A stretch of 64,000 nt of DNA from Anaerophilus nitritigenes (GTDB taxonomy: Bacteria > Bacillota > Clostridia > Peptostreptococcales > Thermotaleaceae): positions 1 to 64,000 of the forward strand of contig NZ_RYYS01000009.1 in NCBI RefSeq assembly GCF_004138215.1, read 5' to 3'. Positions 9,081 through 46,041 of this stretch are shown one piece after another. The position numbers and the translations under genes are program-made. How positions within the stretch are numbered: the first letter of the stretch is position 1; every line of letters starts with the position of its first letter. The notes beneath the pieces are model-generated. The model was given only the letters and a program-made list of their open reading frames with translations. It did no database searches and was not told the DNA's origin.

Positions 9081-9116
9081 ATAGTACTTGTGATAAAAGT
9101 ACTATAATAATATAAT
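9081..9116 (+). promoter_or_regulatory. Promoter and HxlR-type operator
   Basis: Perfect 9-bp arms ATAGTACTT (9081-9089) and AAGTACTAT (9097-9105) surround a 7-nt spacer. They overlap TTGTGA (9088-9093), which is 17 nt from TATAAT (9111-9116), giving a promoter for the gene at 9169. The GTACT arms resemble known YodB/HxlR-type boxes. The position suits repression of the divergent gene by the HxlR protein. Confidence 0.65.
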
Positions 9117-9168
9117 ACTACTGTAATCCATGGAATACGTCAAACAATTTTATATAGGAGGCAGTATA

Positions 9169-9570
9169 ATGAGTAAATTACTTGATTATTTAAATGAAAA
9201 TAGAATAGGCAAGCTTGCTACGATAAAGGATGGTAAACCAGTGATAAGACCTTTTCAATTTCAATTTGTGAGAGAAGGAAAGTTTTATTTTGTAACTGCA
9301 AATACTAAAGAAGTTTATAAGGAATTAAAAGAGTCTGGTGTTGCAGGGTTTGCAGTAATCGGTAAAGATATGAAATGGGTACGTATGAATGGACAAATTC
9401 AATTTGTTGATAGCTTGGAATTAAAAGAAGAGGTTCTTAATAAGGAACCCTTAATACGTGATATTTTTAAAACCCCAGAAAATCCAATTTATGAAATGTT
9501 CTACATTTATAATGGTAGTGCAAGTTTTCATGAATTTGAAGGAGAATTAATAGAGCAAATGGAGATTTAG
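9169..9570 (+). CDS. Pyridoxamine 5'-phosphate oxidase-fold (FMN-binding) protein
   Basis: 133 residues matching the small PPOX split-barrel family: LDYLNENRIGKLATIKDGKP, VIRPFQFQFVREGKFYFVTA, and KWVRMNGQIQF. These small proteins bind FMN or similar cofactors; the substrate is unknown, with quinone or nitro-compound reduction plausible given the HxlR partner. ATG 9169 follows TAGGAGG (9155-9161) by 7 nt; the in-frame codon at 9130 has no ribosome site. A palindromic operator lies in its promoter. Confidence 0.85.
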   Translation: MSKLLDYLNENRIGKLATIKDGKPVIRPFQFQFVREGKFYFVTANTKEVYKELKESGVAGFAVIGKDMKWVRMNGQIQFVDSLELKEEVLNKEPLIRDIFKTPENPIYEMFYIYNGSASFHEFEGELIEQMEI

Positions 9571-9667
9571 AGTATATTTAATAAATCATAAAATACTAGT
9601 ACTTCGATAATATACTTGAGATTATAGTTTTCATTTAATTTACATAGCAGAATAATTTGTAGAGCTT

Positions 9668-9699
9668 AAAAAATATCCTGCCTAACTATTAGGCAGGAT
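9668..9699 (-). terminator. Terminator overlapping the stop codon of the XRE gene
   Basis: ATCCTGCCTAA (9675-9685) and TTAGGCAGGAT (9689-9699) form an 11-bp stem with a 3-nt loop. Read on the minus strand it is followed by ATTTTTT. The stop codon of the XRE/cupin gene (9689-9691) lies inside the stem. Confidence 0.8.
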
Positions 9700-10240
9700 A
9701 AAAATTTGTTATTGTAGCTTTTAAAGTACCCTTTCCGCTATTAATATATATATGTTGATTAGAGGCTGGAAAGCTTATTGAATCGTTAGGATTTAGCGTA
9801 TATATTTTATTGTTTACTTTTAATGTCAACTCTCCTTCTAATACCATAATATATTCTTCTGATTTTTTAGAATGACCTACAGATTTATATGAGTATCCTT
9901 CATCAAGTTCAATTTGAAAAAATTCAAAATTACGGTAGGGTGTATTAGTGTAATAGCAATATACGCGATAATGGCCTTCTTTAGCAACCTGAGGGTTAAG
10001 ATCAATTTTTCTTATCATGCAAGTATTATGTTCTTTTTGTTCAAGTAATGAGGTATAAGGAATTTTTAATCCATTAGCTATTTTCCATAAAGTGTTTATC
10101 GTTGGATTTGTATCTCCTTTTTCAATTTGGGATAGCATGACTTTACTGACATTAGATAATTCAGCAAGTTGACCTAAACTCAAATTTCGTTCAGTGCGAA
10201 GTGTTTTAAGATTTTCTGCAATGATAGAATTTATATTCAT
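9689..10240 (-). CDS. XRE-type HTH regulator with cupin domain
   Basis: 183 residues. An N-terminal XRE HTH (about 8-65) contains LSLGQLAELSNVSKVMLSQI and KGDTNPTINTLWKIANGL. The C-terminal cupin barrel (about 105-180) contains KKSEEYIMVLEGELTL and NPNDSISFPASNQHIYINSG. Such regulators bind a small metabolite in the cupin and control nearby transport or metabolic genes. Minus-strand AGGAGG precedes the ATG. It is divergent from the HD-hydrolase gene at 10461, a possible target. Confidence 0.9.
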   Translation of the reverse strand: MNINSIIAENLKTLRTERNLSLGQLAELSNVSKVMLSQIEKGDTNPTINTLWKIANGLKIPYTSLLEQKEHNTCMIRKIDLNPQVAKEGHYRVYCYYTNTPYRNFEFFQIELDEGYSYKSVGHSKKSEEYIMVLEGELTLKVNNKIYTLNPNDSISFPASNQHIYINSGKGTLKATITNFYPA

Positions 10241-43585: not shown

Positions 43586-44492
43586 ATGCCAAGAGTAGCG
43601 AGGATAAAAAGTATAGATTCCATATATCATGTAATGATTCGAAGCATTAGTGAAATTGATTTATTTAAAAGAAAATAGTGATAAAATAAAATATCTTTCT
43701 CTTATAAAAAAATATGAATATAAATATCAGTTTAAAATATATGCTTATTGTTTACTAGATAATCATGGCCATCTTATGGTAGATGTAAATGGGGCTGATA
43801 TATCTAAAATAATGCATTGTATAAACTTTTGCTATGCCCAATATTATAATCGAAAATATAAAAGACATGGACATGTTTTTCAAGATAGATTTAAAAGTAA
43901 GATAGTAAAAAGTGATAAGTATTTAATAATGTTGTCTGCCTACATTCATAATAATCCAACAGATTTACCTTTATTTAAAGAAAATGTTGAAAAATATCCA
44001 TTTTCAAGTTTAAAAGAATATGTAAATCATACTAATGACTATGAAATATTGGATAAAAGTTTTTTAGTGAAGATATTGCAATTGAATCATAAAAAGAATA
44101 TGAAAGAGTATTTAAATTTAGTGGATCGATGTAATGGGGAACATGGTCTATTGGATATAGAGTTTACAATAAAAGATTATGAGTATAGAAGTGAAAGAGA
44201 GATAATAATTAGAGAGCATGCACCGAATGAAATTATTCATCATGTAGCTCAATTTTTGAAAATAGATTGGGAATATATATATCTAAAGAATAGCAACAAG
44301 AGTACTTTGTTAAGGGCATTAAGCATATTTTTAATGATGTGTTTTTGCAACATGACAGCAAAAGAAATTTGCAAAATTCTAGGCAATATTACTGCAGGAA
44401 GGGTATCGAACTTATCTTTAATAGGAGTAGATATGTATACAAAGAATGATGAAATAAGAAATTTTGTGCAAGAATTGATGAAGATAGCATAA
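43586..44492 (+). pseudogene. Y1/RAYT-type (IS200-like) transposase with a frameshift
   Basis: ATG 43586 (after AGAGGGAG) encodes MPRVARIKSIDSIYHVMIRS ending ISEIDLFKRK and a TAG. The remaining protein is in the +1 frame: LKENSDKIKYLSLIKKYEYK onward to 44492. Joining them needs removal of one base in the A-run near 43667-43670. The HUH pair is in DNHGHLMVDV, and the catalytic tyrosine region is CYAQYYNRKYKR followed by GHVFQDRFKS. The C-terminal 90 residues form a DnaA-C/HTH-like domain. RAYTs nick and move REP sequences. It is probably inactive in this copy unless the ribosome shifts +1. Confidence 0.85.
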
Positions 44493-44670: not shown

Positions 44671-46041
44671 ATGATTATAACAGTAAAACCATTAAAATTT
44701 ACAATGCTAGAAACAAAAAACCCTTTTGAGGATATGAGATGTATATTTAAAGATAAAAGAAATGCTAACGGTGTTAGGACAACTCTTTTTTGTAGATATA
44801 TAGGGATGAATGAGATGGAGGATGTCTATATAAAAGAATTAAAAGAATTAGATCATTATCTACAGTCTCATGCACTTCATTACATTAAATTTATCCATGG
44901 ATTAGAGAAAATTATAGATATCAATGGAATAGAAAAAATGAAAAAAGTTATGGAAGATTATATGAATTTAGAAAACAAATATTTAAGTTCTTCAGAATTA
45001 TTTTATTTTCATATGGGATATGAAATAGAAAATGAATCGTTAGAGTGGACGAAAAAAATAGCTTTTCAAGAAACGCTTAAACTATATGATCATCATAATC
45101 CTTATGGGAATCCTACTATGAGAAAAAATTTTGGCGTAAAATTATTATTATGGATGAATCGATATATAAGAAAATTATTTAAAAATAAAATAGATAGGCA
45201 ATTGATTCCTAAGGTGATATTTTATGGAGATATTACAAGGCATGAATTTTATTTTTTGATATTTTTGTGGAAACTAGGGTGTGATGTACTTTATTTGAAT
45301 CCTAAGGAAGATATTACACATGAAGCAGATAAGTATTCTAAATTGTTTACATGTAGGAATATGAGAAACTGTAGTGTTCCCTTTGAAGAAAATATGATAA
45401 AACAAAAAAATAATTCTTTGATGAATACAAAGAAGCAAGTGAATATAGAACATCAATCAAATATAATAGAAGCGAAAGAGTATGCTGAAAAGAGTTATGA
45501 AGAGCTTGCTCGATTAGCAGAATCTGTTGTGATGGTTCATGTGTATGATAAAAATGAAAAAATTATTAGCAGAGGATCAGGGGTTGTAATAAATTGTGAA
45601 GGATGGATTGTTACTAATTTTCATGTAGTGAGTAAAGGACTATTTTTTGGTGTAGTTTTTGAAAATGATCCTAATGAATATCGAGCATATAATATTGTAA
45701 AATATCATACAGACTATGATTTAGCTTTAATAAAAGTAGATAAAAAAACGAAACCTATTCCACTTTATGAAAAAGAATTAGTAAGAGGACAAAAAATTAT
45801 AACTATTGGAAGTCCACTAGGATTATTTAATACTATTTCAAATGGAATTGTATCAGGATTTAGAGAATTAGATCAAATTAAGATGCTTCAAATTACTGCA
45901 CCTATTTCTCCAGGAAGTTCAGGAGGCGCACTAATTGATATGTATGGAAATTTAGTGGGGATTACATCAGCAGGTTTTGAAGGGCAAAATCTAAATTTAG
46001 CAGTGCCTAGCGTTTATGTAAAAAAATTTATTGGAAAATAA
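44671..46041 (+). CDS. Trypsin-like (S1C/HtrA-type) serine protease fused to a YceG-like N-terminal domain
   Basis: 456 residues. The C-terminal 175 are a chymotrypsin-fold protease: SRGSGVVINCEGWIVTNFHV (His about 318), YHTDYDLALIKV (Asp about 350), ISPGSSGGALIDMYGNLVGI (Ser about 417). No PDZ domain, signal peptide or membrane helix is seen, so it acts inside the cell. The N-terminal 260 residues resemble YceG_bac of tellurite-resistance-linked gene clusters, mainly at PKVIFYGDITRHEFYFLIFL and GCDVLYLNPKED; I am moderately sure of this match. Start ATG 44671 follows GGGGGTGAG. It stands just past the RAYT element and forms no operon. Confidence 0.8.
   Translation: MIITVKPLKFTMLETKNPFEDMRCIFKDKRNANGVRTTLFCRYIGMNEMEDVYIKELKELDHYLQSHALHYIKFIHGLEKIIDINGIEKMKKVMEDYMNLENKYLSSSELFYFHMGYEIENESLEWTKKIAFQETLKLYDHHNPYGNPTMRKNFGVKLLLWMNRYIRKLFKNKIDRQLIPKVIFYGDITRHEFYFLIFLWKLGCDVLYLNPKEDITHEADKYSKLFTCRNMRNCSVPFEENMIKQKNNSLMNTKKQVNIEHQSNIIEAKEYAEKSYEELARLAESVVMVHVYDKNEKIISRGSGVVINCEGWIVTNFHVVSKGLFFGVVFENDPNEYRAYNIVKYHTDYDLALIKVDKKTKPIPLYEKELVRGQKIITIGSPLGLFNTISNGIVSGFRELDQIKMLQITAPISPGSSGGALIDMYGNLVGITSAGFEGQNLNLAVPSVYVKKFIGK

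Follow-up and report, generated by a model that had tools for sequence, protein, structure and literature searches.

A gene of Anaerophilus nitritigenes encodes, in one polypeptide, a single YceG repeat followed by an HtrA-type trypsin domain, and we propose, with a probability of about 0.6, that its product would act as a cytosolic protease dedicated to the Ter (tellurite/chemical-stress) system, docked or gated by the YceG domain. Membership of the Ter system is proposed because the fusion co-occurs with StiP and TelA genes and is located repeatedly beside ter genes in other genomes. Ter systems are widespread, pathogens included, and the roles of YceG, TelA and the biosynthetic module are largely obscure. 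The fusion links a protease to YceG, which is among the most poorly understood Ter domains, and offers a direct experimental handle on the role of YceG: the catalytic serine can be mutated for substrate trapping, and the YceG domain can serve to fish out a partner or ligand.

The window, that is, the whole stretch of DNA analysed, comprises the first 64 kb of contig C102. The fusion gene (44671..46041, plus strand, as are all its parts given below) is an uninterrupted open reading frame of 456 codons for amino acids, supported by its Pfam domains and by orthologues, and starts with an ATG directly preceded by a ribosome-binding-like site, GGGGGTGAG. The original prediction that the N-terminal part resembles YceG_bac is borne out by hmmscan against Pfam, with PF14266 matching residues 37–234 (44779..45372) at an E-value of 3.6e-25 and 89.5 bits, against a curated cut-off of 25. 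A variable linker, recognizable by its fast evolution and by low model confidence (segment 230–269), spans residues 236–270 (45376..45480) and is followed by the HtrA-type protease domain, for which Trypsin_2 (PF13365) matches residues 302–431 (45574..45963; E 1e-25, 91.6 bits, cut-off 27.6) within a structural domain of approximately residues 272–456. The protease domain forms the C-terminal end of the protein, and Pfam, searched with E-values up to 1, detects no PDZ domain in the fusion protein, as had been predicted. Directly 5' of the gene, at 43650–44492 of the window, lies an open reading frame for a Y1_Tnp protein, an IS200-like or REP-associated tyrosine transposase, a homologue of which occupies the equivalent site in a congener (G001).

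In terms of repeat organization, classic YceG proteins contain at least two repeats, those of type A coming first and one of type B last, whereas the fusion has only a single repeat, which according to genome-wide profile hits is also the sole YceG domain encoded by A. nitritigenes. Both the profile hits and the alignment assign this repeat to type A; the last repeat of classic proteins is absent among the hits, and the trypsin domain occupies the position where the B repeat would be. In the alignment, the residues common to the fusion and classic YceG are mostly kept (F40, G45, K152-N153, K181, G203 and D205), and the R-x-G-F motif that precedes conserved residues in the classic repeats is missing. 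The AlphaFold model of residues 1–235 has a pLDDT of 65.7 and a pTM of 0.69, and a Foldseek search with it returned no match at an E-value of 0.001 or better. With AAA+/P-loop NTPases such as TnsC, ORC and HslU, the best VIA-align Z-score was only 5.8, and since such a value may reflect nothing beyond a common alpha/beta arrangement, no fold is claimed for the YceG part.

The protease part is predicted with higher confidence, mostly at a pLDDT above 90, and superposes on DegS with a Z-score of 27.8 and 2.0 Å over 179 residues. The catalytic triad of an HtrA-type protease, which had been predicted to be intact, is conserved across relatives: His318 (codon 45622..45624), in a TNFHV motif, is kept in 12/12 fusions examined; Asp350 (45718..45720), in a DLA motif, is invariant among the aligned fusions; and Ser417 (45919..45921), in a GSSGG motif, is a serine in all but one of the 12. 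In the remaining case, the fusion of Ruminococcus sp. UBA7013 (L136:9965-11143), GSCGG replaces GSSGG, placing a cysteine at the position of the catalytic serine. Among solved structures, the one nearest in sequence is the Clostridium thermocellum RsgI9 S1C domain (7sjy; E 3.2e-29), which is also the top Foldseek match. The NCBIfam models for HtrA/DegP score below their cut-offs (TIGR02037, 106.5 bits vs 416.2; NF047968, 87.1 vs 470). Mean Kyte-Doolittle hydropathy does not exceed 1.41 in any 19-residue stretch of the fusion, nor 0.33 in the first 60 residues or so; because hydropathy is low over all such stretches, the protein is unlikely, as judged by hydropathy only, to have a signal peptide or membrane helix, and it probably acts inside the cell, in keeping with what had been expected of it. 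The same values disfavour a secreted HtrA identity.

Further fusions of this kind, which the original prediction had suggested looking for, recur in many Clostridia and related bacteria, and often lie within ter gene clusters. About 24 were found, a count that includes one broken and one split copy, as well as some distant fusions in which the profile match covers just part of the YceG domain. Full-length orthologues share 76% identity within the genus and approximately 60% in sister genera of the same family, with further, more distant orthologues in the order, class and phylum. A scan of assembly contigs with the single sequence yielded no further fusions, and an alignment query of such contigs added three, from uncultured Clostridia and Ruminococcus. 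No relatives of the fusion were found in viral contigs, and among plasmids no record had one place covering 80% of the query. The trypsin domains of 12 fusions, which are those included in the tree out of the approximately 24, form one clade with a support of 0.99, and this points to a single fusion event, i.e., to a single origin of the YceG-trypsin architecture. In the congeneric pair, dN/dS over the whole protein is 0.26; by segment, the YceG part has 0.33, the linker 0.46 and the protease 0.16, and the values for the two domains indicate that both are under constraint. Constraint is strongest in the protease domain (0.13–0.16), and the linker is the fastest-evolving segment in three of the four pairs compared. 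Given the existence of the 76% and approximately 60% identical orthologues and the whole-protein dN/dS of 0.26, the architecture is neither a chance product nor an assembly artefact. The fusion can nevertheless be lost, since one genome (G013) retains only a trypsin remnant, the copy in G325 is broken by an internal stop and a frameshift, and that in G760 is split over two open reading frames.

With regard to the Ter system, none of the partner genes of YceG had been noticed near the fusion. This absence holds within the 64 kb window and fails for the genome, where TerD, TelA and StiP-module genes are all present, so that the earlier picture of a gene detached from the Ter system has to be abandoned. 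A Ter cluster is located on the same contig at approximately 92.5–99.6 kb and contains three TerD genes, AIM24, a C-C_Bond_Lyase (PF15617), a PRTase_2-TRSP-StiP-PELOTA protein and a HAD hydrolase, and TelA is encoded on another contig (C75), close to a TerD-like gene. The fusion gene itself stands alone, about 46 kb upstream of the cluster, and neither visual inspection nor a comparison of shared 10-mers revealed a promoter motif common to it and the ter genes. The distance between fusion and StiP on one contig ranges from 52 to 73 kb in A. nitritigenes, G012, G014 and G015. As for other members of these loci, the AIM24 family protein (L037:11139-11846, approximately 93 kb on the contig) lies between TerD genes and has homologues at the equivalent position in G001, G006, G012 and G015. 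Two proteins of 147 and 263 residues without a Pfam match (L038:7472-7915 and 9102-9893) flank TelA, and homologues of both, in conserved order, occur in G013 and G325.

Across genomes, StiP and TelA are both present in 9/9 of the G-numbered fusion genomes first examined. When a two-domain fusion is defined by a match of at least 360 bits running into both parts, which holds for 16 of the 394 genomes of the order, StiP is found in 15 of these 16 vs 59 of the 394 overall, a co-occurrence with a Fisher p of about 1e-12, in which independence is overstated because the genomes are related. The one exception, G465, is a genome of 79% completeness in which the fusion adjoins YceG, TelA and TerD at a contig end. 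At least eight genera have the fusion gene adjacent to ter genes: in G053 it is placed with the C-C lyase gene on one side and the HAD gene on the other, in G347 and G486 it is divergent from TerD, and it also adjoins ter genes in L134, L135, G1080, G760, G465, G635 and G751. In several genomes a classic YceG is present alongside the fusion, so that the latter is an addition there. G006 and G008 possess the StiP module without any YceG, showing that the module does not depend on the fusion. Among the neighbours of TerD genes are also proteins of approximately 890–980 residues (L123:10416-13187, L125:8916-11855, L239:11609-14302 and L240:15937-18594), which, to judge from their N-terminal sequence, are probably P-type cation ATPases. 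Upstream of the Ter cluster of G015 (L126:1085-3455), short open reading frames with a recurring IEEDNPLKQGLK motif suggest a repeat array, e.g., CRISPR.

In the mechanism that we favour on the grounds of domain content and gene context, the YceG domain would be a docking or gating element, either allowing the protease to join a TelA/YceG/TerD assembly or sensing a product of the module or a damaged state, and the protease might then cut a cytosolic substrate selectively under metal, oxidative or envelope stress. The reported sensitivity of Bacillus anthracis yceGH mutants to reactive oxygen (PMC6813211) is compatible with such a stress role. Several observations stand against a role in the Ter system, namely the solitary position of the A. 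nitritigenes gene, without a promoter motif shared with the ter genes, the StiP modules lacking any YceG, and the decayed or split copies. Together with the trypsin remnant and the broken copy, the location of the A. nitritigenes gene outside the Ter operon is also what would be expected if a stray HtrA domain had been joined by accident to a YceG fragment, with no part in Ter; the wide spread of the fusion with one protease clade, purifying selection, the kept triad and the repeated adjacency to ter genes nevertheless make such an accident highly improbable. A protease part without catalytic activity, serving just as a scaffold within a Ter complex, is improbable too, considering that the triad is retained across 12 fusions, with a cysteine nucleophile in the one lacking the serine, and that the protease is the most constrained domain.

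Quality control is a possibility to be regarded with some doubt: the YceG domain would recruit the protease to cytosolic proteins damaged by metals or reactive oxygen, making the fusion a cytosolic counterpart of DegP/HtrA on the Ter system, with no specific regulatory target. The HtrA-class fold and the reactive-oxygen phenotype of the B. anthracis mutants would fit such a function. HtrA chaperone-proteases, however, handle their substrates by means of PDZ domains, and it is precisely this element that the fusion lacks. Tentatively, and with similar reserve, the fusion could be pictured as a signal-gated effector, in which the Ter biosynthetic module would make a nucleoside-like signal, and binding of this metabolite, or of a loaded TelA/YceG complex, by the YceG domain would switch on the cytosolic protease. 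A role in defence was considered as well and set aside, the PADLOC matches of the fusion itself being restricted to the trypsin part.

In the literature searched, outside of which lies the main Ter genomics paper (10.1039/c2mb25239b), neither the YceG-trypsin architecture nor its location in ter clusters was found to be described. The nearest precedent found is a TerD-trypsin protein of Pseudomonas syringae, YP_273108.1, listed in 2008 by Tripathi and Sowdhamini with its function uncharacterised (PMC2605481). Like the fusion, it carries a Ter-system domain N-terminal to trypsin; unlike the fusion, this domain is TerD and not YceG, and a single protein was listed. Classic YceG proteins (PF14266), such as that of Bacillus subtilis, share the homologous domain, and their genes likewise accompany those of TerD, TelA and the biosynthetic module, but they have two or three repeats ending in the B type and no protease, whereas in the fusion one A-type repeat is followed by trypsin. 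HtrA, DegP and DegS (S1C) have the same protease fold and His-Asp-Ser triad, from which the fusion differs in having neither a PDZ domain nor a visible signal peptide or membrane anchor, and in scoring below the NCBIfam HtrA cut-offs. The annotation of RsgI9 of C. thermocellum (7sjy) is that of an anti-sigma-I factor containing an NTF2 domain; unlike the fusion, RsgI9 has no link to YceG or Ter. The candidate phage defence protein RT-Protease_XI of PADLOC (E 3.9e-18) resembles the fusion in carrying trypsin C-terminal to another domain, which by its name is a reverse transcriptase, but the match covers only residues 260–454 and not the YceG part. The joining of a Ter domain to trypsin thus has a precedent in YP_273108.1, and the YceG-trypsin architecture would be new within a known kind of system.
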